64,000 nt of DNA, taken from NCBI GenBank assembly GCA_963922205.1, contig CAWUHX010000045.1, forward strand, positions 372,001 through 436,000. Direction: 5' to 3'. The position numbers were made by a program, and so were the translations under genes. The notes under the pieces are model-generated. The model saw only the letters and a program-made list of their open reading frames with translations. It ran no database searches and had not been told where the DNA came from. Below, piece after piece: positions 22,710 to 64,000 of the stretch (the first letter of the stretch is position 1; each line of letters opens with the position of its first letter). Source of the DNA: Romanomermis culicivorax. Taxonomy: Eukaryota > Nematoda > Enoplea > Mermithida > Mermithidae.

Positions 22710-25259
22710 CTACATAATTAGTGTTATCTTATACCTGCTTTTCTTACAAATTTTATTCTTCAGAAAAAACGATTCAAAAGTTTTGTTTTCTAAAATTTCA
22801 GATTGCCTCATAATCAATACTTGAAAATTTTTCCTAAAAATTTCCCATGGATCTTCCAATTCATTTTTCTTTTCGTAAAACATTCTTGACTGCCAAATAC
22901 TTTTTTGAGAAGTACAAATGATCAGATTTAACACCACAATTTTCTCACGACTTGCATACCTAAGCTTCACACCAAAAATGAAATTTTCAATATTCATATT
23001 TAAATCCTTGTCTATGCCCTTCAAGGCTATAGCAATTTTGATCCAAAAATCTGTTATTCTAGGACAGAGGGCAAAAACATGATAAACATCTTCTCTTTCA
23101 GATCTGCCTTCATGTAAACAAAACTTACAACTTGCATCGAAGTTTGGATCCATGTGATTTATTTTTGATCTGGTCAACAGAAACCTGTGAATAATTGAAA
23201 ATCTAATGTTTCTCCCATATCCATCTAAAAATTTAACTGGACTACAAGTTAATAACTCAAGAATAGTTTTCCTAGGTAATCCAATTTTATGTTCCCAATA
23301 TTCAGTGATTTTTGGTTGGCACTTTTTTACAATTTTGTCTAGGATTATGAGATAAAACACTTTTGTAGAAACATGATCCAAATGAAGAGATCTCCCTCCT
23401 ACTTCAACTACATTATTATTTAGAAACTGGAACTTAGTATCTATTTCTGCAGTTCTGATCCTCTTATATAACTCAGGGACATGCATTCTTGCCAGCTGTC
23501 TTTTTGACTTATTTTTTACTTTATCTAGAAAGAAAAAACTAATATCAGGATTCCTTTTTTCCATCTTTATCAGAAGCATCAAATTCATTGCTTCAATTTT
23601 TGCAATGACATCGACCATACCTATACCTCCTGCATTCCGGGGTAATTTTAGCTTCTCAGTTGCTACCAGATTCCTATTAGATCTATTTGACCAAATAAAC
23701 TTTATAGCAAATTTTTCAATGTATTTAACAAAATCCGGCTCTATATCACAAAACAAGGCTGAATACCATAGTTTAGACAAAAAATATGTATCAATAATTT
23801 TAGCTCTGGCATAATATGAAATTTTACTTGATGCTAGGTTTCCTCTAAATTTACTGATTTCTTCTTTCAATGCTTTAACATTTTCATCTTGTTCAGCTCC
23901 CTGCTTATTGAAGTAGATTCCATAGATTCTCATCTTTTCAACAAGGAAGTCTTTATATTCATGTGGAATATTTTCTTTCATGTCACCAATGCAAAGAATT
24001 TTAGTCTTTTCTTTTTTCCAAGTAGCCCCAGAGGCTTTTCTGTACATTTCATACACATCAAAAATTTTCCTGACTGATTCATAATCTTTCAAGAAAAAAT
24101 TTGTATCATCAGCATAACAATTTATCTTGAATTCTTTCCCTAGAACTTGTAATCCTCTTATTAGACTATTTTTCCTGATGTGATTGCATACTGTCTCTGA
24201 TACAAGCACATAAATCAAAGGTGATAATGGACAGCCTTGTCTTATTCCTCTGCTTACATTCAATGGAAAAGTTTCATAGCCATTCACCAATAATGATGAT
24301 TGCAATTGCCCTAAATTATAAATTATTTTATAAAATTGTATGAATCTTGGATCAAAGTTGAAAAAAACTAAAGTATCAAAGATATAGTCCCATTCAACAA
24401 TGTCAAAAGCTGACATGTGATCTACCGATAAAATTAAAGCTTTTTCTTCTGTTTCCTTTTGATAATGAATCATATTATAGATGGACAACAATCCATCTCT
24501 GATATCTCTTCCTTTCACTGCACATGTCTGGTTTTCATGTACAATGTCAGGCATGATACTTTTCATTCTATTAACCAAGATTTTTGCCAAAATTTTATAA
24601 TCAACATTTAACATTGTTATTGGTCGCCAACTACTTCTTTCAGACATATCATGTTCTCCTTTATATATCTGAGATATAATACCATGATACATTGTATTAG
24701 TCATTTTACCTGAATCGTATATAATAGAGAATAATGTCTTCAATATAGGTACCAAAGAATCAATAAACTTTTGATAATACTCAATAGGAATTCCATCACT
24801 TCCAGGTGATTTTCCTTTCTTGAATGAGAAAATTGCCTTTCTAATTTCTTCTTCTGAAAATTCTTCTCTGAGTAACTTGTTTTGATCATCAGAAACCATT
24901 TTAGTAGATTTTTCTTCCAAGAAAATTTGTTTGTGTTCTCTACTTGTGCCAACTGTTTTGAAAAGCTTCTCATATTGTCTTCTATACTCTTCCAAAACTT
25001 CTAATTGATCCTCTAATATATTACCACATTCTGTCTTGACTGAAGTTATTGTTCTATTCTCAGCAGGCCTTTTTTGCAAAACTTTTGCAGTTGCAAGTGA
25101 ACATCTATCAGCAAGAATGTCTTGATAATGTGTTTTACTCAGCTTTTCATTAATTAGACCCTTAATCACTGTTTTATACTCATTCTTAACTTTTCTATAT
25201 TCTTTTCTTAATCCCAGATCCTGATTATTACATTTCAATTTTTCTCTTATCTCATTCAT
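22710..25259 (-). CDS. LINE ORF2 reverse transcriptase (open, 849 codons)
   Basis: RNA-templated DNA synthesis for the LINE. The frame has the RT landmarks in order: KGKSPGSDGIPIEYY (about residues 148-162), SVDHMSAFD (catalytic D280), RGIRQGCPLSPLIY (337-350) and CYADDTNFFL (catalytic YADD 382-385). A C-terminal Cys/His motif, CKFCLHEG..VYHVFALCP, is typical of L1/Tx1-type ORF2. The frame is open upstream of this ATG to a TAA at 25398-25400, where it should join the endonuclease. The intact RT beside a broken endonuclease suggests fairly recent loss of activity. Charged lysine/glutamate-rich linkers flank the RT. Confidence 0.9.
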   Translation of the reverse strand: MNEIREKLKCNNQDLGLRKEYRKVKNEYKTVIKGLINEKLSKTHYQDILADRCSLATAKVLQKRPAENRTITSVKTECGNILEDQLEVLEEYRRQYEKLFKTVGTSREHKQIFLEEKSTKMVSDDQNKLLREEFSEEEIRKAIFSFKKGKSPGSDGIPIEYYQKFIDSLVPILKTLFSIIYDSGKMTNTMYHGIISQIYKGEHDMSERSSWRPITMLNVDYKILAKILVNRMKSIMPDIVHENQTCAVKGRDIRDGLLSIYNMIHYQKETEEKALILSVDHMSAFDIVEWDYIFDTLVFFNFDPRFIQFYKIIYNLGQLQSSLLVNGYETFPLNVSRGIRQGCPLSPLIYVLVSETVCNHIRKNSLIRGLQVLGKEFKINCYADDTNFFLKDYESVRKIFDVYEMYRKASGATWKKEKTKILCIGDMKENIPHEYKDFLVEKMRIYGIYFNKQGAEQDENVKALKEEISKFRGNLASSKISYYARAKIIDTYFLSKLWYSALFCDIEPDFVKYIEKFAIKFIWSNRSNRNLVATEKLKLPRNAGGIGMVDVIAKIEAMNLMLLIKMEKRNPDISFFFLDKVKNKSKRQLARMHVPELYKRIRTAEIDTKFQFLNNNVVEVGGRSLHLDHVSTKVFYLIILDKIVKKCQPKITEYWEHKIGLPRKTILELLTCSPVKFLDGYGRNIRFSIIHRFLLTRSKINHMDPNFDASCKFCLHEGRSEREDVYHVFALCPRITDFWIKIAIALKGIDKDLNMNIENFIFGVKLRYASREKIVVLNLIICTSQKSIWQSRMFYEKKNELEDPWEIFRKNFQVLIMRQSEILENKTFESFFLKNKICKKSRYKITLIM

Positions 25260-25397
25260 TTTGTTTTCACAATTCTTCCTTATTCTAAAATTCTTCTTAT
25301 CAATTTTCTTTTTGAGATATATAAAATCCTGCTTTATGTTTACTTTGAAATTTTCCCATTTATTAATTAAGGATTTGCCTGAAGTGTCCGTAAGATC

Positions 25398-26212
25398 TTA
25401 AAAATTTTTCTCAAAAGAATTTCTAACTTCTTTTATGATCTCATTTTCTTTTGTACTAAGATAACTACTATTCATTTTCCAAAAAGAAGGCCCAAATGTG
25501 ACTAGCAAAAAATTTAATTTGATAGTTACCATAAAGAGCTTGTGATCTTATTCCTAAATCAAGTACTTTGTAGCTCTTGAAAGAGTCAGACAAAAATCTT
25601 GTTGTGTAAATTCTATCAATTCTTGAAGCAGATTTATGAGCATTGGAAATATGTGTAAAAATTTTCAGCTTTGGATGGTTTAGTCGAAAAATATCATACA
25701 ATCCCAGCTTACTTTTCACAGCCTCGAACTCTTCTTTTCCTTTTCTTCTTCTTTGAATCTGAATGAATCTCTGTCAAGAAGACCACACTCTGTAAAATTG
25801 AAGTCACCTAGGATGATTGCTTCATTGTGATGCCTGAAGGAATCATTGATTTTTTTGTATCAGCTTCTTTCGCAGGAGCATATATTACCATAATATAAAA
25901 CTTTTTCTTTTCCAGTTCTGCAAGATATGCTAGTACCCTGCCTTTCATTTCAAAAACTTTTCTCTTCAATTTTAGTCTACAAGTATGGTTAACTAACAAA
26001 GCTATACCAGTACAGTTTGTGTCAGCAGAAGAAAGTTTATAAGCAAAATATTTCTCAAAAGTACACTTAAAAAGGAATGAATCTTTTTTAGTTTTAAAAT
26101 GTGTTTCCTGTAGAGCTAGAATATCTATACCTTTTGTTTGCTCATAAATTTTGCTCAGTTTCAAATCATTCCTCAATAACCCTGCACAGTTCAGAGTTGC
26201 TACTCTGAGCAT
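25398..26212 (-). pseudogene. LINE ORF2 endonuclease domain, frameshifted
   Basis: An exonuclease-endonuclease-phosphatase domain that would nick target DNA. The first part (26212-25808) has the start LRVATLNCAGL, the catalytic LQETH and the IYAPA strand. The GDFN motif and the SRIDRIY motif follow in other frames (about 25790 and 25600). The three pieces lie in three different frames, so at least two frameshifts have occurred, and an in-frame TAA separates the domain from the RT. The last SDH motif is degenerate (GNYQIKF). It belongs to the same ORF2 as 22710-25259. Confidence 0.85.
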
Positions 26213-26304
26213 ATTCCCTTGCCTAGCAGTTGTTGGAAAAAAATAAAAAAGCTAAGTCAAAGAGTTTAAATCAATGCAGGGTTAGAAAATTCTGACCAGA
26301 ATGC

Positions 26305-33653: not shown

Positions 33654-34148
33654 TTAACACTCCAAGAACTCTAACATTACATTGACAGGTAAGTTTTGGT
33701 CTAGTAAAATACAATTATTATCAGGATTATGATTTCCCAAATACAAGACACAACATTTTTCTGCTGAGATCCCCAGCTGCCAGGATTGAGGCCAAGCTGA
33801 AATTTTGTCTAAGTCTTCTTGTAAACTTTTAGAATTTGAAGAAAGATTGAAGAGTTTTACGCCATCAGCAAAAAGATAGATGAAATTTTCAATACGATCG
33901 CATAGATCGTTTATAAAAACTAGGAATAAGGTTCGTCCAAGAACACTACCTTGTGGAACTCTACTAGTAACGGGCATCAAGATGGAGAGTGTGTTATTAA
34001 TTCGTACTTGTTGCTTTCTGTTCGAAAGAAACGCAAATATCCATCTATGAACTGAACGATTAATTCCATATTTCCTAAGTTTATGCATTAATTTAGCGTG
34101 GGAGATAGTATCAAAGGTTTTGCTAAAGTCAATTATATACAACATCAA
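33654..34148 (-). pseudogene. CR1/Jockey-like reverse transcriptase fragment, catalytic motif damaged
   Basis: RT landmarks in order: IIDFSKTFDTISHAKLMHKL (catalytic Asp motif A), SRVPQGSVLGRTLFLVFIND (motif B), and LFADGVKLF where the family has the catalytic FADD, so the second Asp is Gly. Sequence upstream of the start shown is missing. Inactive by motif and by truncation. Confidence 0.88.
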
Positions 34149-34299
34149 TAGATTGTCCCTTATCTAGTTACCTAGACCAAATATTTTTTCACTGAAGTGG
34201 CTGAGTTTCACAAGATTTAAACTTCATAAAACCAAATTGTTTATCAGATAAAAGTTTGTTGTGGTTTAAATAAAGCAAAAGTTTATCATTTCTAAATCT

Positions 34300-38200: not shown

Positions 38201-41200
38201 AAATTTTGCGCAAAAAAAACAATAATCTCGTAGTTTTCCTCACAATTTCGACCTTACTTCTCATTTTTGCGTTCGCTTGCATCGCTTATCGCCGAATCTC
38301 CATCAGGAAGAAAGCCAACGATTCCAATTCTCATTGGTATAATACGCTGCCACTGAGACCTTTCGAATTTATTTCTCACAGAAGTAAATTTTGTGAATTT
38401 TATTGTTCAAAAGTTCTGCATCATTATTGCCGATGTGATAATCTGTCGAATATGTATTTTGTACGGGACAAAAAAGTAAAAACTTCAGCGTGCCCTATTT
38501 TTATGATTGATTTTGGCATCAAAATATCGTTTCCAGTGCTCCGAAAATTTTAATGGTATTCTTCTCGTTTTAGTGAATAGTTACGTTGCAGAACCCGGCG
38601 CGGATACTTATTGTTCCATCGAAAGATCAGAGGGCATTTACGACGATCTCTCGTACTTGGTACCTGATAATGTTCGAATTCCGTGGAATTCGATCACTAA
38701 AGAAGAAATGATAGGCATGGGTTAGTTTTTTAGTGCTTGGCATCTTTCAAGGCTTTAAAACCATTGTTCTGTTACGGTATTATTAGTTCAGTAGTAAGCA
38801 CTTCGTTAAAATTTCATTCCGTTTGTTTAGGTCACTTTGGCGAAGTTTACAGAGGAATATATACGAAGCCCAATGGACGCGTCTTTACTGTGGCAATCAA
38901 AACTTTACGAAGTATGAAATCAGACTATATGTTTTACAGTGGCGTTAAAATCTACGTGATAAAAATAATTTAGCACAGTTCGATACGATTCTGTTGTAAA
39001 TTGTCGCTATTTACCTAAAATTGCTGAAATTACAAGGTGTAAAAAATCTTTCGTAACAAATATCTATTGTGCGATTTTTTTGAATCTTAACGGAAAATTA
39101 TAGTTTGAATCACTTTTCCTGTTCCTTTTTATTTTCTTGATTTTTTTATCATCATGCCGAAGTGTAGCAAATTTGAGCAACGGAGTTTTAAAAACTTTTA
39201 TCGAAGAAAATTACCTGCTTATTTTTAGTTGGTGCGAGGAACGTTAAACAATTCGTCGATGAAGGGATCAGGATGGAACTTTTTGACCACAAAAACGTCC
39301 TATCTTTAGTCGGTATAACTTTCAACGAATCGAATTATCCGCTGATCGTTACACCTTTCATGGCTCACGGTGACTTACTTTCTTACTTAAGAAACCCGAA
39401 TAATGTGAGATTTCGAACGTTTTTACGTTTTTGTTTTTTGGAAAGTTCCCTGAATTTTAGAGTCCTACTGTTCGCAATTTATTAGAATTTGGTATCGACA
39501 TTATTGAAGGATTGAAATATTTGCATCAAATGCGATATGTTCATAGAGACTTGGCGGCCAGAAACTGCATGTAAGTTTTTGGACTGAAATTGGTCGCAGA
39601 AATTTTCACGCTTCTGATCGAAACACATTGTTCCGCTATGAAATTCTGATTCATTGAAGTGCAAAATTCCGGTCAATGCGGGTTTTTTTTTGGTTTTTTT
39701 CTCGACAGGCCATTTGGCTCCTAGGGTTAAAATTTTGCAGGCCAATAGGAATTTCAACAAGCCAAAACTAAAAAGTTTGTAAATAAATTTTGTAGTGAAA
39801 AAACTTTTTTTTAAACAAATTTAGTCAAAAACACTCTTCAAAATCACAGTAGAAGCAAGCATAACAGATAAATCATTAGGAATACATTCATAATCACACA
39901 CAGAATAATAAGGCTCACAAATGACCAGTCATTATTCAAATACATTATCAGGCTTTTTTCGCACAAGCCACGTTCATCTGCAACTTGTGGAAAAATTTGG
40001 TTGCACAGATTATAATTTTTAGTTGCTCGCTATAAAATTGATAAGTTCGCTTAATTTTATCAGGAAAATGATTAAAAGTTACTTCCCTTGTATTTCATTC
40101 ACTTCGCGTCAGTTCCTGACTTTTAAAATTGAATTTCTTGAGTTTTTATTGAGAAATCAAACGTCTGGCTAAAGTAACTTGTTTGGTTCCTGACGCCGAA
40201 AAATTTTGATTTCGAGGCCTCTAAAATATCGGATAATTCATTTTTCATCACATTCTGCTGCAACTGCTGATGATCGATCTTTCCACCATTTGATTGGCGG
40301 AAGAGGTCAAAGATTTTACCTTCTTTTTAGATCTTATATATCTGAAGCCAGTAATTTACCAGTCACAATTATTTATCAAAAGCGATTGTTTTCACATGAT
40401 CTATAACATAAAAAAGCGCGATAAGTATTTTACTTCGGACTTGAATATTTCCGGCGCTTAACACTGAAAGAAAATTTTAGATTATGATTTGGAAATATTT
40501 TTCCTGCATGAAGGGTCTATTTTTTCAGTGAATTCAATGAGTTTTCTGTGGGGCAAACTAGAATTCAAAAATTAGGCACAATGAATCTGAATGGCTTCTT
40601 CAGATAGCAAGAACATCTGCCATTTTCCCATGCGCATGTTTTAATCATTTTCCAAATGCAAAAAGTTATGTTCACCATAAGCCAAAAATTCTAAAGCGCA
40701 GAAAACCAATTTTGTAAAAATAATCTAGAAAAATCTTGATTTTTGTCAAATACGTGGAAAAAACAATACAAGGTCAAACATTCATCCATAACATGCTGGT
40801 TTCTGAAAGCTATAAGCATAAGCTAGGATGACATTTTCTAACCGCACAACAGAAATGATACCAAGATTCATAAATGATTTAAAATCCAAGCGAAGCGCCG
40901 GAAAGTTTTCTGTATTTTTCGTTTTAGAATGCATAATAATGCATCTCCGCACAGGAAGCCCTATAGCCTAATCAAAAAGGATGGTTAGGCTCTCATTTTT
41001 ACAAGCCAATTTGGCTTGTGCCCCTACATTTTTAGGAGCCATGGCTCCTAATTGGCTTAAAAAATCCCTGGGTCAATGCAATTAAACTGCTTTACGTGTT
41101 TGCAAATTCATGTAATATCTTAAGCTACAAAATTAAAGTACGAAAATGAGTTTTCATTTACAAAAATCGACAGTAATTTTGATTTTCAATCTTTTTTTAT

Positions 41201-51429: not shown

Positions 51430-53891
51430 TGTTGCGATAAGTAAAAAATTAACCCTACCTGAAAATCCCATATTTGGTGTAACTTGATGCTCTAGGGACG
51501 AAAATGATATTCATTTCGTCTGAAAATCAAAACTCGCATAGCTATAGTAAGACGAAAGTTGAAAGTTTTCGATTTTTTCAATCTTTGACATACACTTCTT
51601 TAAACTTTTGCAAGTTTAGGTACTTCAGACATCGTGTTCTGAAAATTTACCCAATATTAGGCCAATAGATGGGCCCCAAATTACTGTAGAATTCATTAGT
51701 GTAAAGTGCTTATTAGGAATACAGCTGTGCTTGAAACATTAAATTTTGGGAGCAAAAATTGTCATTTTTTCACAAAAACCACCATATATACTGCTTGAGC
51801 TCAGAAGGACCAAAAAATTCGTTATACAATAGATAGCTTACGATGTCTCCTACCTGATGACAAAAAATTACAGAAATTCATGTACTGCTAGAGGGTCGCA
51901 CAACCTGAAGTTTGAACACTATCCTATAATTGTATTTTCTGGAAGTTCCGACCTCTACTGTGAAACGACTAGAGCTTGATAAATTTTAAAAATGAGACAC
52001 TAATACAAGTTTCGTATGATGAATATTAATATAATTCCCAAAATCATTAAAAAATAAAATTCGCCGGGCTACAGTATCCCAAAGTTTGGAATTTTCACAA
52101 TTTTTAGCATTTTTCTGTCTATTTTCGTGACTTGAGATGTATCGGCCTAGGCATGAAATAACTTTGTTATTGACCGTGTATTTCATACAGGATACAATGC
52201 TCTATAGTGTGGTATGAAAATGTTTTTTGAATTTTGCATTTTACACTTTTGCGAAGTTTTAAAGTGTCAAAAGTGAGACCATAAAAACGATGAAACAGCA
52301 GGTTTCTTTCTACAAAAATGACTATGTCTACTGCTAAAGCCAAAAGCACCCTAAATTTATCTATACGGTGGATATATTACGATGTCTGCCAGTTGCATGC
52401 AAAAAATTCCTCTGTACAGTGCACCAAGGTATGGTACGGCCTGATTTGACTACTAGAATAGGGGATGATGAAACATTCATGCAGCTAGACTGGGCCATGA
52501 AAATTCTACTAATCAGTGGCCGTGAAGATCAATCAAACTGGTATGGCAAGAGAGAGAGATACCTTGGCATATTTCATACATCCTCGCTAATATCAGCGGT
52601 TAGTTACACTCGAGGACTTACCTACATGTATTTGATCCACTATCACAAGATCATTGCAATCATCAGCGCAGTCATTGCAACCATCGGCGATACGATACTG
52701 TGATACAATACTGCGAGTCAAACAAGAACTTCCAAATATAGGTCTGGCTTATAACCCCTCAGACAATGCTGGTTGCTATCATGGATCCAACACTTCAGGC
52801 TCCATGCATGTTGTCTCCAACAAAATGGGCTTGGCAGTTAGACGATGGGATTTTTCTGAAACTCAGTTTGGCAAAGGACCCTGTGCAGCACTGGTGAAGC
52901 GGCAAGTTCGCTTGTTCCTAAGCCAAAATAATAAATGCACCATTCGTGAAATATCCACTACATAGAGAAATTTTGGGTGCTTTTGGCTTTAGCAGTACAT
53001 ATAGTCATTTTTGTAGAGAGAAACCTGCTTTTTCATGATTTTTACAGCCGCATTTTTGACATTTTAAAACTTTGTAAAAAGTGTAAAGTGCGAAATTCAA
53101 AAAACACTTTCATATCACACTATAGAGTATTGTATCCTGTATCAAATACACGGTCAATAACAAAGTTATTTCATGCCTAGGCCGATACATCTCAAGTCAC
53201 GAAAATAGAGAGAAAAATGCTAAAAAATGCGAAAATTCCAAACTTTGGGATACTGTAGCCTGGTGAATTTTATTTTTTAATAAGTTTGGGAATTATATTT
53301 ATATTCACCATACGAAACTTGTATTACTGTCTCATTTTTTAAATTTATCAAGCTCTATTAGTTTCACAGTGGAGATCAGGACTTCCAGAAAATACGCTTA
53401 TAAGACAGTGTTCAAACTTCGGGTTGTGCGACCCTCTAGCAGTACATGAATTTCCGTAATTTTTTGTCAGCAGGTAGAATACATCGTAAGCTATCTATTG
53501 TATAATGAATTTTTTGGTCCTTCCAGCAGTATATATGGTGGTTTTTGTGAAAAAAATGACAAATTTTGCTCTCAAAATTTGATGTTTCATGGACCAGTGT
53601 ATTCCTAATAAGCACTTTACACTAATGAATCCTACAGTAAATTGTAGCCCATCTATTGGCCTAATATTGGATAAGTTTTCAGAACACGATGTCTGACATA
53701 CGTAAAGTTGCAAAAGTTGAAAGAAGTGTATGTCAAAAATCGAAAAAATCGAAAATTTTCATTTTTTGTCTTACTGTAGCTATGCGAATTTTAATTTTCA
53801 GACGAAATGAATGTCATTTTCGTTCCTAGCGCATCAAGGTACAACAAATGTGTGATTTTCTGGTAGGGTTAATTTTTTACTTATCACAACT
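51430..53891. mobile_element. Large foldback element with ~0.93-kb inverted arms
   Basis: The left arm (about 51430-52364) and right arm (about 52960-53891) are inverse complements along their whole length, with scattered substitutions and small indels. Outer ends: GTTGCGATAAGTAAAAAATT and the inverse of AATTTTTTACTTATCACAAC; inner ends: GCCAAAAGCACCC and GGGTGCTTTTGGC. Both arms contain the same short frame (MLLALAVxIVIFVERNLLFH), read outward from the centre. The spacer of about 600 bp holds coding remnants. No target duplication was resolved. Confidence 0.9.
52400..52965 (+). pseudogene. Fragment of a TE-associated protein in the foldback spacer
   Basis: Two frames carry, in order, LDWAMKILLI, NWYGKRE, ELPNIGLAY, PSDNAGCYHG, VRRWDFSETQFGKGPC and ALVKRQVRLFL. 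From memory this order (D-N-A-G-C-Y-H, then D-F-S-E/D-P-Q-x-G-K-G-P-C-D) recurs in an abundant, poorly characterised protein of marine invertebrate genomes that looks transposase-like. Here it is frameshifted and the usual CDR/K after GKGPC is missing, so it is inactive. Confidence 0.55.
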
Positions 53892-54723: not shown

Positions 54724-55516
54724 TGTTTTGTCGTATTACGTGCTCGTATGCCCTCGGCTACCTAGCTGCGGTTCTCGGGAGATCCAATCTAGTTCAGCCC
54801 CTGACGCTAACCCGGTGTTGGATACTGTCCTACTGCAGGTCTCAGAGCCGTAAGAAACAAAGATATTTATTTTGGGGAACTGACAAAAGTGCAAATACAA
54901 CTGTGAGCAAATGGTGAACACAAATACAAAATGCCAAAGTATGAATACGAATACTGAACACCTCCCTAAGTCGCTGACCCTTCTTAAGTCCCTGTACGCA
55001 GAGTCCCAGGGACCTTCGGGTATCTTAATCCACGACCTAAGCTGAAGGCCTAAGAGAATGATCAGTCTACCTTTTGAACTAACACTCACTCTTCTCCTCA
55101 ACAAAGTTTGAACGTCGAAAGTCCTCTCAGGTCGCGGGAGTTTCTCCAGACGAGTCCGCGACGCGAAGTCGAAAATACACAACAATACGAGCAATAAAAG
55201 GCGTCCGCTATCCTTCCACAGTCGCCACAAGTCTTCTTCGAAGACGCAAAGGAAAACGCGACCGGTTCACAATAAGACGATTTATAATAATAATGAAACA
55301 AAACCGCCACGCGTCTAACATCAACTTTGCAGATGCATGCAAAACATTCACGTCACCATTTATGTATTTTTTGAGCCAAAAATGTATATGACACAAACCG
55401 TTTTACTGGTTTGTTTGCCCAAGAATAAATGAAACCACTTTAACAACAAAGGAGCTTTGGAGAATAAAAGTGAGGTAGTTAGAGGACCAAAGGTCAGAGG
55501 AATTGACCCTCTGACA
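54724..55516 (-). repeat. Probable 3' LTR of the Gypsy element
   Basis: On the minus strand, TGTCAGAGGG starts directly after a polypurine tract, and ACA at 54726-54724 is the best matching end, giving about 793 bp. Inside are a TATAAA-like box (about 55271-55276) and an AATAAA-like signal (about 54866-54872) in the right order for U3 and R. The start contains the small palindrome GTCAGAGG..CCTCTGAC. The 5' LTR lies outside the window, so the exact end cannot be confirmed. Confidence 0.6.
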
Positions 55517-55528
55517 TCCCTCCCCCCC
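55517..55528 (-). promoter_or_regulatory. Polypurine tract for plus-strand DNA priming
   Basis: The minus strand reads GGGGGGGAGGGA directly before TGTCAG. An uninterrupted purine run abutting a TG terminus is the standard priming site upstream of a 3' LTR. Confidence 0.75.
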
Positions 55529-56705
55529 AAAGGCAAGACTTTTCCCGCCAGCGAAGGGAAAAGTCAGGAGGTCCCCCAAGGGCCCCAGACCCTCGACGCC
55601 GACGACCGACGCCTCCAATTGTTCCAAAAAAGACGACGCTACGCGCCGTTGACGCAATTTGTATACAATAAAAAATAAAATGTACATTTCGAACGGTATC
55701 GTTCCACCATGGGGCCAATGGCGCCGGGTGCTACCCCCGACGCTAAAAAAGTTTTCAAATACGAATGCCCCGTGGGCCGGTTGTCCCCGAATAAAACAAA
55801 GAATAAAATGTTCGAACGAATAGCGTTCGCGACGCTCGGGCCGAATTTGATCAAATAAAAAATAAAATCGTATGACCGGCGGCGACCCCCGCGGTGCCCG
55901 GGTTAAGTTGTGGGCAGCTCCCCACTGCCGTCGATGTGTATTTTATCGGCGGCTCCTCCTTCATCGATTTTGGCGTTCGTCTCCGTCCTCTCCGGAGGGG
56001 GGGTGTTGACGGTGGAGAGCCCGCAAGACTTTCTCGATTTCCGCCGCCGTTGTTCCTCTGGCCCCTTGGCCGGACACTGGCCCCCCCAACGCCTTTGGTA
56101 TTATCTGCCCCCAGGGAGAAAGGATGCCCAAAAAACCAAATCCTCTGGCCCTTTGGCTGTCTAGATTTTGAATCAAAAATGTTTATGGTATTTGTTGTTA
56201 AAGTGATTTTGCCTTATTGAAGGGTAAACTTAAACCAGTAACACGGTTTGTGCCATAAAAAAAAAAAAAGAATTTGAATTGAAAATATGTTTTGGAAAAA
56301 AGGTAAAGAGAAATGTGGAAAATGGTCACGCGAAAGCTGCCTACACACTGCACGATGCTAGTTGGCAACTGCATTGGAAGGAAAAAAAGAAAGGCCAAAA
56401 TTTACGCCAATACAAGATTTGGATTATCGTTTACAAGTTCACCGAAAAATGAGGTACAAAATGTGCTTGTGCAGGTTCAAATAAAATAAAACACAGACGA
56501 AGAGAAAGAATAAACGGAACAAACTGAGATTAGTACAAAGGCAATTTTAAGGCAATTTTAAAGAGGCACAACCGGTTTCTGATTTTGTAATAATAACGCT
56601 CGGAAAAAAGATAAGTAACCTAAGGAATACCCGAAAAAGTTACAACTTGAAAGAATTACGCTTATATTGACCTCACAAAGAGCGGGGTCATTATTAACAA
56701 TTAAT
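55529..56705 (-). other. GC-rich 3' untranslated region of the Gypsy element
   Basis: Between the third ORF and the polypurine tract lies GC-rich DNA, in contrast to its surroundings. The motif AATAAA(AA)TAAAAT or AGAATAAAATG recurs at about 55669, 55799 and 55854, each followed by a GC-rich, CGAACG-type or GGCGGCG segment. Several overlapping short frames exist in different registers; none shows a domain. Confidence 0.5.
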
Positions 56706-59700
56706 TTACTTCTGTCGATGACCGCTGTGGTCCCGCCCCGGCTGACCAATACCTTGATCCCTCTTCAGCGGCGATATATATTCGGGGTTTCCTATCGGCG
56801 GTGGTCCTTGCGGCACTTGCATTCCCGTCGACGTACCCGGAATTTCCATCCTTTCTTCGCCTTGCACGTTGCGTATCGGCGGAATTACTGACGGCGGCGG
56901 CATTTGTATTCCGGGCGGGACCAAGAACTGGTGATAATATTGTTGTTGTCCCGGCTGGAATTGTAAAACCGGGAATTGCGAAACTTGAAATTGCTGCGGC
57001 GGAGGTATCATTGTATTGGGCAATAGTTGACCTGAAAAGAGAGGGCGAGTCATACAGTCAACTCGTACCATAGGTAATCCCGGATAATTCGGCGGCATAT
57101 ATGGCAATTGTTGTTGCTGCGCCATCATCATTGCATTAGGGTCGGCCATTGACACTCCCTGTTGACTCGCTTCGTTGGCCCTAGGCCTATCCAGTGAAGC
57201 CGTCCAACTGGAATAGGACACGTCCAATCGATCATCATGCTGGTAATATCCGGGTGTTCTTTTTCGGCTTCGCGATTTTCGATTCTCCTTTCTCTCCTCC
57301 ATTTCTCTTCTTTCTTTCTCTTTTCGCTCGAATCTCTCCTCGTATTCCTCAATTTCCTTACGCCAGCTTTCCTCCTCATTCTCTCTCCGTCTTTTTTCTC
57401 TTGACATCGACTTTTCATGCCGGTCCCGATGCCGACTTTCATATCTCCTTTTTCGTTCTTTTTCTGGCGTAACCGATTTTTCTTTTTTCTGTTTATCATC
57501 GTCTTTTCTCGTCCAATGTCTGGATACCTTACCTGCCGCAGGCCTGCTGTAGGGGTGCTTGACTCGGTATCCAATTTTCTTTTTCAACTTTTTCTCGAGT
57601 TCCAGTAGATCGCGAGCTTTCTTTCTATCAATAATTTCCCAAAAGCGTATCCGCGGATCCGTATTATCGATTTCTTTCTTCCAAACTTGAATGTTCGTAT
57701 AATTTGGTTCCGGATCTTTTTTATCCTGAAGTACGGCTTTCGCAATTGTATACGCTAACCCTGATGCCTTGGATTGGCAAGAGGCGTATAGCGTATGAAA
57801 ATTACTAGCAGGTCCTTCTTGCCCCGCATTAAACTCGCGGCGCAGTTTCATGGCGACGTAAGCATGAGCCTGGTAATGGAAACCAGCGAAATTCTGCGGA
57901 ATCCTGCCTAACCGCGACAGTTTCATAAATAGGCAGGCGCAAGCCCACACTGCGGCCTCATAGGCTTTCTCCGGAGCCCGAGTTGTGGCCCATTCTGCCA
58001 ATTGCCTCTCGAATATATTCCACAATTTTTCTGGTAAATTGGCCTGCAATACGTGAAATTGCAGCTCATAATAGCATATAGTTTCGATTTCTACTCCCGC
58101 TTCGTCGTAAATACGATTTATCAGATCCGTGGTCATAAGAGCCACTTCTTCATCCAAAGCAGGATTCATATGTGCGAGATACTTCTGAATGCACGGATTC
58201 GACAACGACACTCTGCCATATTGAAAATCGACGACGTACTTTCCTTCTTTCAAAGCTTTCTTCAAAAGCTGCCCACGCTTCCCGAGGCCTCTTCGATACT
58301 TGATTCTGTCATTCGGGTTTCCAGGCGGTTGATGAAATTTCCCGCTCTTCACTTGGTCCAATTCGGCTTTGTTTTCTTCTTTCGATATTCGATTTTCCTT
58401 TTCTTGCCTTTTATTATGCATTACTCTCGCAAACTTTGCAGGATTAGTTATGTTTTCTACACTCTGCCCACCAGCTTTGGCATAAACCGGCGGTGCGGGC
58501 AGAACGTTAGTTTCGGGAGATTCATCCTCACTTCCTATTTCAGAAACGACTTCCACATACGGCTCCTCGCTTGTCTCTTCTTCTTCGGCGTTGATAGTTT
58601 CCAGTTGTTTCGCCAGCTCGATCGCGGCCTTCCCATACTTCTCTTTCTCTAACGTTTCTATTTTTTCTCGCATTTCTTTTATCTGCTCTGTCAATCTTTC
58701 CACATCAGGTTGTGTCTCGCGTTCGGGTTCAACTATTTCCATCAATTTTTCTTCTCCCCCGACATTTTTGTTTTCTTCAATGGGCGCGTTGGCCGTGGGG
58801 GAATCCGCGATAATTACTTCCACGGGCTTTTCTTGGTCCATTTCGACACCTGAAACATTCAAATTATCGTTTTTAGAGGGTACGTTTTCTGTCTGCTCCT
58901 TCGAAGTTCCTTCTATAGGACCCTGGCTAGCCGGGACCACAACTTCTACTTGGGGAAACAGATCCCAATCGTCCCACTTGGTTACTGACTTAAAAGTTGC
59001 AGAAGTGCTCGGGACCCATAGGTCCTTAGCCTCGAATATGGACGCGGAAACATTCCAATAAATGAGATTTTTGCTCGCCGCGTGAATATGCAAAAAATGA
59101 AACACGTTATAAAAGTTATGGTTCAAAAAATAAATAGAGTTATCGCGTAAATCCGTTTCTATTTCTTCCTCTGGTTCTTTCAGGGACCGCGGTATCCATT
59201 TTATAGGTAGGACACAGAAAGTATTTTGGACCGACTTCTGCGTGCGTACCTTCGGATACCGTTCCATCATTTGTTCTGCCTGATCGGTCATTTTGTTATT
59301 TAGAAGGTCTTGGCCCATCCATTTCATAAATTCGATCCGCTCTTGCTCGTTTCTCCAAACAGTAGACCACATACCCGAAGTAAATCCAGGGACCCAAGAT
59401 CTCCATTCTTGCGCCGAGTGAGGCCACAAGAAATAGATAATAGGATTTATATTCTTCTCGTACAATTCTTTGACCACGGGAACGATTGATCGATTGATCT
59501 TTTTTTGGTAGTAGTCCTTGAGCGACGATACCTGTTCTTGCAATTTATTCGTAAAATGGATCACTTTATTGGGCCACCTTCCTTGTTTCATTTCCATTTC
59601 TCGTGGCTCTATTGGACGTCCGAACTGTCGCGCCGCTATTATATCTTCTAGGTCCCAATCGTTGGTTGGCGTTACTATCGATTCTTCAGTATCTTTTCTT

Positions 59701-60767
59701 TTTCGTGATGCTTTCACTCTTCTTTCTATCCACGGGTACCAACCACGAGGTACCGGTTGCGGATCTTTTTCGCTATTCGAGAAATGTGGAGGGCAATAGA
59801 AATTTCCCGCCGTTTGGTCTTCCGAAAATTTATAAGTTGATATGGCTTCCCCGCGCATCATAAAGTACAACGCATTGATATTGCCAGTCATTTCTTCCAC
59901 CCCATATGCGCCTTTCCACTGCGGGTCCGTATATTTGTCTTCAAACGTATCTCGAAACCTTCGGGCTAAATCGGATACCAATTCTGGCTCCATCGTATCG
60001 TGAGGATATAGTCTGAAGCAATTTTGCACATCACTAGCGAACCCGTGTCGTAACAGTGCCAAAAAACATAGAAGAGACCCGCGCGCGTCGAGCGTCGCGT
60101 ATCGTAAAACTTCTATGTTTAGTTTGTCCGCTTCCATTAGCTGCCGAAATTCTAAAGAGCTCAATTGGCCCCACGAAATCTTAAAAGCGTCGGCCCACAA
60201 AAACAGAAGTTCCGTCATAAAAGCCTTCAAGTTCAGGGCTTCCGGGCTAATTCCTACCATTCTAGTCTTCGCTTTATCTTTCATTTCGGCTAAGACGATT
60301 TCTAGATCGTAAACGCAACACGACAAGATGTAGTCAATATTGTCACGCCTTTTCCGGGCTAATTCCTTTTCTTGATCTAGATATCCGAACCTAGTCAAGA
60401 CTAACGTAATATCTTCTCGGATATGAAAACCGACGATGATGTTTTCTTCGCGGAAAATTGTATTGTACACCTTGTGGAAATGTTCCCTGTCCCAAAACTT
60501 TAGATCTATTATAAAGTTTTTTCCACACATGGTCGAAATTGTTAAGAGCCGTAAGGCGTCGCTGGGTCTCGAACCCGCCGTTTTGGGTTTCCTCCCACTT
60601 TCAGTATCTAGCGCGATGAGTACTCGTCCTCTAAATTTTGACTGATTTATCGCCTTGATAAACGCTTTTATGTTCTCGGGCGCAAGAAATAATGGTTCCT
60701 CGATGGCCGCATGAGGCACACCGAACAACGACGAAAAATAATTAAAGATATCTGTTGAGCGTACCAT
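56706..60767 (-). CDS. Gypsy-associated ORF3 with N-terminal DEDDy 3'-5' exonuclease domain (1,353 aa)
   Basis: This is a long open frame on the same strand as pol and downstream of it. Residues about 48-235 form a DEDDy exonuclease: ALDTES (D54, E56), GFHIRED (D119) and LRYATLDA (Y223, D227), all catalytic residues present, so 3'-end trimming of RNA or single-stranded DNA is plausible. The middle (about 300-830) has no recognised domain and includes an acidic stretch and a coiled-coil (EQIKEMREKIETLEKEK). A helical, cysteine-containing region follows (about 840-1060). Next comes a highly basic Arg/Lys/Glu-rich segment (about 1090-1170), likely nucleic-acid binding, and a Pro/Gln/Met-rich tail. 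No signal peptide or TM helix was seen, so it is not an envelope. DEDDy ORF3s are reported for bdelloid rotifer LTR elements; this one is far longer than a bare exonuclease. Confidence 0.85.
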   Translation of the reverse strand: MVRSTDIFNYFSSLFGVPHAAIEEPLFLAPENIKAFIKAINQSKFRGRVLIALDTESGRKPKTAGSRPSDALRLLTISTMCGKNFIIDLKFWDREHFHKVYNTIFREENIIVGFHIREDITLVLTRFGYLDQEKELARKRRDNIDYILSCCVYDLEIVLAEMKDKAKTRMVGISPEALNLKAFMTELLFLWADAFKISWGQLSSLEFRQLMEADKLNIEVLRYATLDARGSLLCFLALLRHGFASDVQNCFRLYPHDTMEPELVSDLARRFRDTFEDKYTDPQWKGAYGVEEMTGNINALYFMMRGEAISTYKFSEDQTAGNFYCPPHFSNSEKDPQPVPRGWYPWIERRVKASRKRKDTEESIVTPTNDWDLEDIIAARQFGRPIEPREMEMKQGRWPNKVIHFTNKLQEQVSSLKDYYQKKINRSIVPVVKELYEKNINPIIYFLWPHSAQEWRSWVPGFTSGMWSTVWRNEQERIEFMKWMGQDLLNNKMTDQAEQMMERYPKVRTQKSVQNTFCVLPIKWIPRSLKEPEEEIETDLRDNSIYFLNHNFYNVFHFLHIHAASKNLIYWNVSASIFEAKDLWVPSTSATFKSVTKWDDWDLFPQVEVVVPASQGPIEGTSKEQTENVPSKNDNLNVSGVEMDQEKPVEVIIADSPTANAPIEENKNVGGEEKLMEIVEPERETQPDVERLTEQIKEMREKIETLEKEKYGKAAIELAKQLETINAEEEETSEEPYVEVVSEIGSEDESPETNVLPAPPVYAKAGGQSVENITNPAKFARVMHNKRQEKENRISKEENKAELDQVKSGKFHQPPGNPNDRIKYRRGLGKRGQLLKKALKEGKYVVDFQYGRVSLSNPCIQKYLAHMNPALDEEVALMTTDLINRIYDEAGVEIETICYYELQFHVLQANLPEKLWNIFERQLAEWATTRAPEKAYEAAVWACACLFMKLSRLGRIPQNFAGFHYQAHAYVAMKLRREFNAGQEGPASNFHTLYASCQSKASGLAYTIAKAVLQDKKDPEPNYTNIQVWKKEIDNTDPRIRFWEIIDRKKARDLLELEKKLKKKIGYRVKHPYSRPAAGKVSRHWTRKDDDKQKKEKSVTPEKERKRRYESRHRDRHEKSMSREKRRRENEEESWRKEIEEYEERFERKEKERREMEERKENRKSRSRKRTPGYYQHDDRLDVSYSSWTASLDRPRANEASQQGVSMADPNAMMMAQQQQLPYMPPNYPGLPMVRVDCMTRPLFSGQLLPNTMIPPPQQFQVSQFPVLQFQPGQQQYYHQFLVPPGIQMPPPSVIPPIRNVQGEERMEIPGTSTGMQVPQGPPPIGNPEYISPLKRDQGIGQPGRDHSGHRQK

Positions 60768-61480
60768 TCTCCGAACATTGTAATCTTAAAATTTTCATAC
60801 AATTTTTTAACTACAATTTTTGTGATAATTTCGAAACAAAACGACTCAAATGCACAAGAATAAATTTGGACATAGGTGAGTTGATCAGTCTCTCAAATAC
60901 CCAAAATCCTCAGCATATAAATTGCCGCGCGGTCAATTTAGAGTCTTATTCCGAATAAAAAATTTCTACCACATATTTTAACCTTTTCACACTTACTACT
61001 AAGTCGGAAATTTGTATTATCTTGGCGATCTTGCGATTCCCCGAAACTACTGTCTACTTCGACGAAACTGGACGTGGCCATATCGCGTTCGAATTTGAAC
61101 TTCAAAAATCCTCCAGTCGACGATAATAATGAATATTATAATATTTTGCAAATGAAATCTAAAAAGTAGCTCCATAACAGCTTCGATTTTATGGGATCTA
61201 TAACTCGGGAAGGGTTTTTTCGGGACTTATAAACATTTTCATTTCTTCACACCGAGCGCGTGAAAAAATATAATTTTTGCCCATTAAAATAAATTTTTGG
61301 CGTCGTAATTTTTTACAAGTGCCTAAAACTGCCATAAAATTGCCAAAAATAAGTTAGAACGATAAAAATTCAAAGGGAAAAACGAGGAGAAATGGGGAAA
61401 ATTATGATACACAGAAGATTAAAAAGGGACACATAAAATAAAATTTGAACACAACGCGCAAATAAAACGATAAAAATGAA
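60768..61480 (-). other. Spacer between pol and ORF3
   Basis: About 710 bp of AT-rich, stop-dense sequence on both strands. A splice acceptor or internal promoter for ORF3 might lie here, but none could be pinned down. Confidence 0.45.
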
Positions 61481-64000
61481 TTATGAACTACAGTAAAAAT
61501 CAGGTATCCGCGTAATAAAAGGCATTACGCGATTTACGGAGACTATTTGTACACGCGAATCTGGTTTCCCAGCGCGGCGTATTTTTATAACATTTTTATC
61601 TAAATTTTGTGTTTCAATTACTTCGTAGGGGCCGTCATTTGTAGTGTCGGCCTTTCCTTTGATAATTCCCTTTTGATAGAGGACAAGTTCACCCGTTTGG
61701 AAGGTTTTCTCGCGAGCCTTCTTATCATACTGTAATTTTCTTTCGGCCGCCGATTTTTTATGGTTTTCATTTATAGTTTTATACGTGTTAAGGAGATGCT
61801 CCGTTAACATGTATCTATAGGTGTCGTAATTATTCTGAATAATTACGGGCCTCGCTATTTCGTTGTCTATCTGGAACCTTGCCTCGTGCCCGTATAATAG
61901 GCTATGGGGGGAATTTTTTGTAGTTTTGTGAGGCGTAATCCGATACGCAAATAAAATCTGTTCCAAATAATGGGGCCAATCGTCGGGGTCGGTAATTGCC
62001 ACTCTTCTAATCTGCTCAATTAGCATTCTATTAAATCTTTCCACCATACCATTACATTGTGGGTGGTATGGTGTCGTATTTATTTTTTTGATTTTGAGAA
62101 GGTCGCATACGTTGCGCATTAATTCGGACATGTATGCTGAACCTTGGTCGCTCAGCAAGTGTTTTGGCGCCCCGTGAGTATAAATTACTTTCTCCATGAA
62201 GGCCTTTACTATAGTATCGGCCTTTTGATCGGGAATACACTTGGCCTCCACCCATTTCGTAAAATAATCCATGAATACAATAACATATGGCCTTTTTTCT
62301 CGTAAAGGCGAAATACTAACCACATCGGTGGCTACTATTTCCCAAGGATATGAAACGGGTATAGGGTTGAGTGGTTGAATTGGGTTCGCTATTGGGCGGC
62401 ATAATTGGCATACGACACAGGATTTTATCCACTTAATGATGTCGTCTTCCATATTTGACCACCAAAATTTATTCCCAATTGCGGCAATGATTCTATCTAT
62501 CCCTTGATGTCCCATCAAGGTATCGCGGTGGTACTGGTGTAGGACAAGATACCTAAGCTTGGTAGGAATTACTAATTGATTTCTTCCGTGGATACTTTCC
62601 CGATACAATACTTCGTTTTCCAAGTGAAAACTATTGAAGTATTTTTTTGAGCTGTTTTCACCAATATTCCGAAAAATTTCCACCAACTTTGGGTCTAATC
62701 GCTGTTGTTTCTTGATCAGTTCCAGAGAGAATAAATCAGACTCCTTTTTTACTTCCTCTGGCGTTTGGTCTATTTCTTGTTGAGTTGGTGGTGGGGGATC
62801 AATAAATACTTCTTGTGTCTCTGGTTCAAGCATCTGTCTTGTCATAGCTCTTGTTACCGCCATACATTCGGGTTCCGTATCCACTTTTTTGTCCTCGATT
62901 TTCTCGTTGCCTTCTGGTTTCTTGTTTCGGACCTTTTCTATTTCCTCTGATCTTGATAAAAAGTCTGCAAAGGCGTTCTCGCGTCCGGCTACATATTCAA
63001 ATGTGTAGTTGAACTGTCCAATATATATAGCCCATTTCAATAATCTTTGATTTTGTTGTTTCTCTGCGGAGAGCCAGGTAAGTGGTTTATGATCTGTTCT
63101 AATTGTGACCCTAAACCCCATAACATAATGTCGATACTGTTTGAATCCATAGACTACGGCTAAGCACTCTCTTTCTGTTGTCGAGTACCTTGTTTCGGCA
63201 TCGTTTAGGACTCTGCTCGAATATGCTATCGTCCAGCGATCGTTTTCCGTTTCCTGATATAGAATCGCGCCTATTGCTGTCCCTGATGCATCGGTTTGAA
63301 TTACGAACTTCGCCGATCCATGGAATACTGGGTACCGCAGGAATGGTGCCGTCATTAGGGCATCTTTTACCCCTCTAAACGCCGTTAATTGCTCTTCCGA
63401 AAGTTCAAACTTCTCTTTTCTATTCTTTTTTACAAGGGCTTTAAATAACGGCTGAGCGATAAAGGCTAAGTTATGTATAAATCGTTTGGACCATTGCACT
63501 AATCCCAAAAATTTTTGCAGCTGCTTGATCGACTTGGGTACTTCAAAGTTTTTTACCGCTTCTATCTTCTGGGGGTCAACTGACATTCCATTTTTGTCCA
63601 ATATGTGGCCTAAAAATTTTACACTGGCCGGCATAAAGGAGCATTTGTCAGGTTTCAATGTAAGGTTTGCGTTTGTCAAACATCGAAAAATGGTCTCTAT
63701 ATTTTGTAAATGCTCCTCGACTGTTTTTGAAAAGATTATCACGTCGTCAATATATACTAAACATATTTTCCACACATATGGATAAAGAATTCGCTCCATG
63801 AGACGCAGAAATTCTGCGGGGGCATTTTTTAAACCGAACGGCATCACCTTGAACTGGAACAGGCCGTCTTGACATATGAATGCTGTTTTTTCTTTCGATT
63901 CTGAGTGCATGGGTACCTGCCAATATCCGGACTTTAGATCCAAGGTCGAAAAATAGCGCGCACCTCCTAACGCATCTAAATAATCGTCGATTCGTGGTAT
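61481..64000 (-). CDS. Ty3/Gypsy pol: reverse transcriptase, RNase H, integrase (5' end beyond window)
   Basis: The frame is open from the window edge (64000) to the stop at 61481; an ATG is not required near 63943 because RIDDYLDALGGARYFSTLDL continues upstream in frame. RT: STLDLKSGYWQVP, MPFGLKNAPA and VYIDDVI (catalytic YIDD). RNase H: QTDASGTAIG, TERECLAVVYG and RTDHKPLTWL with the expected D-E-D. Integrase: an HHCC finger (HQYH..GHQG..CVVCQLC), then a DDE core with ATDVVSI, LSDQGSAYMS and GMVERFNRML. The C-terminal part ends after a basic segment (LVLYQKGIIKG) with no chromodomain seen. Protease and Gag should lie beyond 64000. All catalytic residues are intact, so this copy may be young. 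Confidence 0.97.
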   Translation of the reverse strand: MPRIDDYLDALGGARYFSTLDLKSGYWQVPMHSESKEKTAFICQDGLFQFKVMPFGLKNAPAEFLRLMERILYPYVWKICLVYIDDVIIFSKTVEEHLQNIETIFRCLTNANLTLKPDKCSFMPASVKFLGHILDKNGMSVDPQKIEAVKNFEVPKSIKQLQKFLGLVQWSKRFIHNLAFIAQPLFKALVKKNRKEKFELSEEQLTAFRGVKDALMTAPFLRYPVFHGSAKFVIQTDASGTAIGAILYQETENDRWTIAYSSRVLNDAETRYSTTERECLAVVYGFKQYRHYVMGFRVTIRTDHKPLTWLSAEKQQNQRLLKWAIYIGQFNYTFEYVAGRENAFADFLSRSEEIEKVRNKKPEGNEKIEDKKVDTEPECMAVTRAMTRQMLEPETQEVFIDPPPPTQQEIDQTPEEVKKESDLFSLELIKKQQRLDPKLVEIFRNIGENSSKKYFNSFHLENEVLYRESIHGRNQLVIPTKLRYLVLHQYHRDTLMGHQGIDRIIAAIGNKFWWSNMEDDIIKWIKSCVVCQLCRPIANPIQPLNPIPVSYPWEIVATDVVSISPLREKRPYVIVFMDYFTKWVEAKCIPDQKADTIVKAFMEKVIYTHGAPKHLLSDQGSAYMSELMRNVCDLLKIKKINTTPYHPQCNGMVERFNRMLIEQIRRVAITDPDDWPHYLEQILFAYRITPHKTTKNSPHSLLYGHEARFQIDNEIARPVIIQNNYDTYRYMLTEHLLNTYKTINENHKKSAAERKLQYDKKAREKTFQTGELVLYQKGIIKGKADTTNDGPYEVIETQNLDKNVIKIRRAGKPDSRVQIVSVNRVMPFITRIPDFYCSS

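Follow-up and report, generated by a model that had tools for sequence, protein, structure and literature searches.

What is the protein that a Ty3/gypsy long terminal repeat (LTR) element of Romanomermis culicivorax encodes in the env position, and what might it do for the element? Romanomermis culicivorax is a mermithid nematode and a parasite of mosquitoes, and the question arises from a 64-kb stretch of its genome (the window; coordinates are window positions unless a contig is given) in which an open reading frame (ORF) of 1,353 codons, here called ORF3, lies on the minus strand at 56706-60767 between pol and the 3′ LTR. An original prediction made from the window had placed this frame in the env position of a gypsy element and assigned it the five residues of a DEDDy 3′-5′ exonuclease, and both observations are confirmed here. 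ORF3 is a gene of the element and not a neighbouring host gene, purifying selection acts on all of its regions, and moderate evidence indicates that it contains a predicted DEDDy 3′-5′ exonuclease, of which both the fold and the catalysis are predictions.

Structure and age of the element

The complete Ty3/gypsy element spans 13,601 bp (C45:426729-440329), including DNA beyond the window edge that was analyzed as locus L113. It lies on the minus strand, and its parts outside ORF3 are as follows.

54725..54728, minus strand: 4-bp target-site duplication AAAC outside the 3′ LTR, with a matching AAAC ahead of the 5′ LTR at G000:C45:440330-440333
54729..55516, minus strand: 3′ LTR of 788 bp, TGTCAG...ACGACA, with 2/788 mismatches to the 5′ LTR at G000:C45:439542-440329
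55517..55528, minus strand: polypurine tract GGGGGGGAGGGA, read from the sequence and abutting the 3′ LTR
56191..56257, minus strand: inverted copy (~80%, by sequence comparison) of a 64-nt stretch of the LTR at 55387-55450
61481..64000, running past the window edge, minus strand: pol part of the gag-pro-pol ORF, with reverse transcriptase (RT), RNase H, and integrase (Pfam)

The LTR ends of the window copy are of the TG...CA type and are accompanied by a target-site duplication, the combination by which Ty3/gypsy LTRs are recognized. Pfam finds the pol domains in the order RVT_1, RT_RNaseH, H2C2 (integrase zinc-binding), and rve (integrase core), and pol terminates at 61481 on the same strand as ORF3. 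Gag, protease, and pol form a single open frame, with 1,178 amino acids (aa) in the L113 part followed by the 839 aa of pol in the window. The 1,178-aa part contains an aspartyl protease (Pfam) and reaches the RT start with no dUTPase at E ≤ 1 in Pfam; gag was assigned by position and sequence only, Pfam giving no gag match. Downstream of ORF3, about 1.2 kb separates it from the polypurine tract and LTR. The inverted repeat formed by 55387-55450 and 56191-56257 was present in 20/20 loci compared, and the RNA could fold there.

LTR pairs were compared in best-scoring copies of the family (L104 and L109 were left out of this comparison); of 18 pairs, ten were identical over ~310 nt, and the pooled differences amounted to 19/5,626 nt. 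The element family has been recently active.

ORF3 is a gene of the element

We compared 34 full-length ORF3 copies, the best-scoring of 6,719 first-look candidates in the same assembly and including the window copy, which share 93-100% identity. All 34 have a same-strand pol directly upstream, exon 1 (described below), ORF3, and an LTR downstream, in that order. Of 20 further copies, 18 have a complete 5′ LTR at the distance expected, and the other two are one with a 39-nt remnant and L104 (G000:C528), an internal deletion derivative in which an LTR abuts the truncated end of pol and ORF3 is intact. Two other copies, L103 and L106 (G000:C209), share one orientation at a distance of ~12.8 kb, and a polypurine-tract end stands ahead of the second copy's 5′ LTR, which suggests a tandem pair with one common LTR.

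In a second genome search the diverged relative P0021 served as query, and 146 of 380 candidates were scored (293 matches). A manual count of the 150 listed rows placed the exonuclease region at 146 distinct places at least, and 49 of the listed rows had frames at least 1,355 codons long. Four loci (L148-L151) were picked from this list for their divergence and compared over pol, exon 1, and ORF3. The three parts stood in order in all four; three of the loci had ~90% identity in ORF3 and 95-96% in pol, and the fourth, an old locus with stops present, had 62% and 74%, respectively. Pol and ORF3 therefore occur together in 38/38 loci examined (34 copies and four diverged loci), and since the pairing extends to the diverged loci, the association is likely older than the subfamilies.

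These results bear on the possibility that ORF3 is a host gene caught beside or inside the element. The lack of family matches for ORF3 is all that speaks for such an origin. Against it stand the position between pol and LTR in 34/34 copies, the presence of the region at 146 places or more, and the restriction of all 21 UniRef relatives of residues 1-260 to R. culicivorax (one length range was searched). We consider a host gene practically excluded, refuted by the linkage to pol and LTR and by the copy number; a single-copy host locus, named in the original prediction as the finding that would count against it, did not emerge, and the co-occurrence of pol and ORF3 that it proposed to check held in the 38 loci examined.

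ORF3 is likely spliced

The original prediction took ORF3 as an intact 1,353-codon ORF, the ATG of which is at 60767. The frame is open as described, and conserved DNA around it points to a start further upstream.

56706..60784, minus strand: ORF3 exon 2, comprising the 1,353-codon ORF and 17 nt upstream, with the stop at 56706-56708 (from the frame, UniRef relatives, and genomic copies)
60785..60996, minus strand: putative intron of 212 nt, GTAAGT...TTTAAG, both ends kept in 34/34 copies
60997..61081, minus strand: ORF3 exon 1 of 85 nt, with 61081 (MATSSFVEVDSSFGESQDRQDNTNFRLS) as the probable start codon, from relatives and copies
61158..61160, minus strand: likely splice acceptor TTTTTAG/ATTTC (slash at the junction), upstream of exon 1, from DNA conservation

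Exon 1 was found in 34/34 copies and in 4/4 diverged loci, and its peptide stands near the start of at least 8 of the 21 UniRef relatives. The intron is 211-222 nt long among the 34 copies, and the diverged loci L148-L151 retain the GTAAGT donor and an AAG acceptor. The acceptor upstream of exon 1 is identical in 32/34 copies, with one-base variants in the other two and a similar sequence in L148-L151. The methionine at ATG 60767 is missing in 6/38 loci (L124, L125, and L148-L151), so this codon is an unlikely start and the gene probably begins in the upstream exon. Taken with the conserved exon 1 and intron sites, the loss of this methionine indicates that ORF3 is likely spliced, with a predicted product of ~1,387 aa, as judged from DNA and gene models. 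One UniRef gene model, P0019, fuses a gag of the same family (72% identity) with a piece of ORF3 (82%).

Evidence for a predicted exonuclease domain

With residues numbered from ATG 60767 in the 1,353-aa ORF, the pentad D54, E56, D119, Y223, and D227 shows the expected order (Asp-x-Glu, Asp, Tyr-x3-Asp) and spacing. All five residues are intact in 34/34 genomic copies and are kept in three diverged loci at ~90% identity; the decayed fourth has D227 changed. A loose DEDDy-like pattern, composed after the ORF3 sequence had been seen, occurs once across the six frames of the window, in ORF3, and in 1/10,000 protein shuffles.

Comparison with a profile built from 15 RNase D-type sequences placed D54/E56 and D119 on their RNase D counterparts in a local alignment and matched all five pentad residues in a global one. 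The hhalign P values against RNase D were 0.011 and 0.0051, and the local score was reached by 0/200 column shuffles with one profile and by 1/300 with another. Among 13 single-sequence windows along ORF3, those starting at residues 1 and 40 scored 27.0 and 24.5 against RNase D, and the rest 10.0-15.5. Two of the 21 UniRef relatives of residues 1-260 are annotated as 3′-5′ exonuclease domain proteins.

Several observations weigh against an exonuclease. The local RNase D match spans the first two motifs alone, and some UniRef relatives do not have one of the catalytic-type residues. Pfam assigned no family to the window ORF3, PF01612 included; PF01612 matched one of 20 alignment members, below the cut-off, and unrelated families matched alignment members equally well or better (WipA_Phos 0.013, Regnase_1_C 0.014). 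No sequence in the PDB matched ORF3, the AlphaFold model of the exonuclease domain is poor (predicted local distance difference test, pLDDT, 53), and the fold matches of this model are unrelated proteins. The predicted exonuclease domain thus stands as a motif with a modest RNase D profile match and no Pfam match at threshold.

The missing Pfam and PDB matches and the poor structure model would suit a fortuitous DEDDy motif in an unrelated structural or envelope-like protein. We consider this quite improbable, given the rarity of the pattern among shuffles (with the reservation that it was written afterwards), the alignment of the residues with RNase D, and the retention of the pentad in the three diverged loci; the hydropathy of the protein, described next, also argues against it.

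Further regions of the ORF3 protein

The predicted domain had been described as part of a longer multi-region protein, and the conservation of further regions bears this out.

60033..60650, minus strand: predicted DEDDy 3′-5′ exonuclease domain, residues 40-245 (five catalytic-type residues and RNase D profile; ratio of nonsynonymous to synonymous divergence, dN/dS, 0.073 over residues 1-245)
59088..60032, minus strand: conserved middle region, residues 246-560 (dN/dS 0.074; no Pfam match at the cut-off)
57543..58427, minus strand: conserved region predicted to be all-helical, residues 781-1075 (dN/dS 0.077; helices in a low-confidence model, pLDDT 41)
57198..57542, minus strand: highly charged Lys/Arg/Glu region with Arg-Ser (RS)-like stretches, residues 1076-1190 (by composition; dN/dS 0.061)
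56709..57197, minus strand: Pro/Gln-rich tail, residues 1191-1353 (by composition; dN/dS 0.119)

The linker between the middle and helical regions has a dN/dS of 0.162 and looks coiled-coil-like by eye. Dimerization and a nuclear location are predicted from the coiled-coil-like and the charged RS-like regions. No hydrophobic membrane-spanning segment was found in ORF3, where the highest mean hydropathy over 19 residues is 1.29, and for this reason ORF3 is unlikely to function as an envelope.

Purifying selection on ORF3

Codon counts were made on 33 equal-length copies, the window copy, which is two codons shorter, being excluded. Mean pairwise dN in ORF3 was 0.0150 and dS 0.1668, giving a dN/dS of 0.090, the check that the original prediction had called for; every region fell within 0.06-0.16, and the integrase end of pol had a value of 0.060. 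The third codon position was the most variable in 6/6 ORF3 regions, and 22/33 copies were stop-free in ORF3. In two-state codons with one base change (stop codons skipped), changes confined to a single copy comprised 85 nonsynonymous versus 151 synonymous and shared changes 47 versus 267, against a neutral expectation of 2.5-3.5 nonsynonymous to 1 synonymous. Between subfamilies (three comparisons), the exonuclease had a dN of 0.062 with dS >2, i.e., saturated, and the integrase a dN of 0.024-0.028 with a dS of 0.74-0.99.

Other values count against a simple reading of these ratios. Exon 1 alone has a dN/dS of 0.55 over its 28 codons. Variation is lower in non-coding parts (intron 0.020, spacer 0.028, and 3′ region 0.041) than at synonymous sites (0.167), so that dS is perhaps an imperfect neutral reference, and the ORF3 dN of 0.015 is little below the intron value of 0.020. 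Among 28 copies (without L093 and L104 and, for one set, without L124-L127), the intron (0.018), spacer (0.019), and LTR (0.042) again varied less than four-fold sites (0.089); relative to LTR, spacer, and intron, variation at four-fold sites was two to five times higher in ORF3 and about two to four times higher in pol. The excess persisted outside contexts prone to CpG decay (third position 0.0755 versus 0.0192). The cause is either constraint on the non-coding parts or rapid change at synonymous sites; even so, the codon-phase pattern shows the ORF3 protein to be constrained. The protein is nearly constant across dozens of copies and diverged subfamilies, and ORF3 therefore likely does something that the element needs.

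Possible roles of ORF3

The env position of a nematode gypsy element has a studied precedent in Cer1 of Caenorhabditis elegans, in which the CERV protein is translated from a spliced message and acts in the nucleus, where export of the unspliced genomic RNA depends on it (PMC10309623). Cer1 and the present element share a non-envelope gene in the env position and a gag-pol without an intervening stop. Splicing of the CERV message is reported in that source, whereas that of ORF3 is predicted from conserved splice sites in DNA. CERV has 517 aa, exons in common with gag, and G and M domains, with no reported exonuclease (PMC10309623).

Our best overall explanation, to which we give roughly an even chance and whose function is inferred, is that ORF3 is a spliced, env-position predicted exonuclease for nuclear handling and protection of the element RNA. 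The ORF3 message would be spliced from the 5′ leader, such that the full-length RNA would act as genome and gag-pol message and the spliced RNA would make ORF3, the protein of which may act in the nucleus to trim or remove the 3′ ends of RNA. The role we prefer would combine shielding of the element RNA from host small-RNA silencing with regulation of the unspliced RNA, as for CERV. A nuclear RNA exonuclease is favoured because of the missing hydrophobic segment, the CERV precedent, and the small-RNA pathway of clade I nematodes. PIWI is absent from clade I nematodes, and in one member of the clade, Trichinella, Dicer-type small RNAs with RNA-dependent RNA polymerase (RdRP) target transposons (PMC4323106). 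R. culicivorax was surveyed in the same work, which reports no 5′-triphosphate small RNAs for this species; the anti-transposon pathway was demonstrated in Trichinella and not in R. culicivorax, which weakens this line of support (PMC4323106). The sharper proposal that ORF3 acts as a silencing suppressor supplied by the element itself in a piRNA-less nematode, with a large DEDDy exonuclease, spliced and nuclear, that destroys transposon-directed host small RNAs at their 3′ ends and preserves the unspliced RNA of the element, is one we hold only tentatively, as an unlikely case.

ORF3 might alternatively be mainly a CERV-like nuclear regulator or exporter of unspliced genomic RNA, with an exonuclease fold that serves to bind RNA and with catalysis in a minor role. 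The spliced, nuclear Cer1 protein that genomic RNA export needs is the model for such a role (PMC10309623), and the single gag-pol frame, the retained splice sites, and the coiled-coil-like and charged regions found here would agree with it. The size of CERV and the absence of a reported exonuclease from it (PMC10309623) do not, however, and RNA binding alone need not require the five catalytic-type residues kept in 34/34 copies; we judge this role rather doubtful.

Similarly improbable in our estimation is an exonuclease that serves replication of the element by trimming or editing the tRNA primer, strong-stop, or other 3′ ends in reverse transcription. DEDD exonucleases do act on single-stranded DNA and structured RNA (PMC5408684), and ORF3 stands beside pol in 38/38 loci with its catalytic-type residues conserved. 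Yet ORF3 is separate from gag-pol, with splice sites that suggest a message of its own and a protein for which packaging is not required, and most of the protein is non-catalytic and is nevertheless similarly constrained.

Relation to known systems

The bdelloid rotifer precedents named in the original prediction, in LTR and Penelope-like elements, are borne out by the literature (PMC5408684, PMC6431247), and a DnaQ-like exonuclease has been described as an accessory domain well known in LTR transposons (PMC6338049). The bdelloid elements Juno and Vesta share with the present one the LTR architecture, a separate DEDDy ORF downstream of pol replacing env, and young insertions (PMC5408684). They differ in that the host here is a nematode, the predicted protein is 1,387 aa long and has additional conserved regions, and an upstream exon and intron are present; in their catalytic residues (DEED versus DEDD here); and in carrying a dUTPase, none being found by Pfam between protease and RT in our element (PMC5408684). 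ORF3 here is under purifying selection, whereas the bdelloid ORF3s sequenced in that source (env-like and GDSL, not DEDDy) showed mostly neutral variation (PMC5408684). No rotifer sequence was among the 21 UniRef relatives of residues 1-260 in the length range searched. The Penelope-like Terminons and Athena likewise are retroelements carrying a DEDDy exonuclease; unlike the present element, they are non-LTR, telomeric in rotifers, multi-ORF, and up to 40 kb long (PMC6431247, PMC5408684). The cellular DEDDy proteins RNase D, MUT-7, and EXD1 share the five catalytic-type residues and their order, and the RNase D profile, the one used for comparison, aligns with ORF3; similarity is low, there is no Pfam match, and the extra regions of ORF3 are without known relatives.

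Since DEDDy ORF3s are already known in LTR elements (PMC5408684), the present one is a variation on a known theme; what is new is the nematode host, the large multi-region protein, the upstream exon and intron, and purifying selection throughout, the earlier exonuclease ORF3s of bdelloid rotifers having given no clear sign of being kept by selection. No published report of this element, or of the host with such an ORF3, was found in the open-access literature among the matches listed. Together with Cer1 CERV, ORF3 suggests that gypsy elements of nematodes can devote their env position to proteins that handle RNA, and the host clade, without PIWI and with Dicer/RdRP small RNAs where studied, makes an anti-silencing role directly testable.

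Other features of the window

Further features of the window lie outside the element.

22710-25397 and 25808-26251, minus strand: long ORF with a reverse transcriptase (RVT_1), non-LTR-looking, and an endonuclease-like stretch (by eye; no Pfam match) upstream
33654-34163, minus strand: fragment of a second reverse transcriptase (RVT_1)
51431-52382 and 52944-53890: foldback-like element whose two arms, near 1 kb each and 85-92% complementary, are inverted about a central 0.56 kb
39192-39485, plus strand: exon of a protein kinase (PK_Tyr_Ser-Thr), which may belong to a host gene for a receptor kinase at ~35-43 kb

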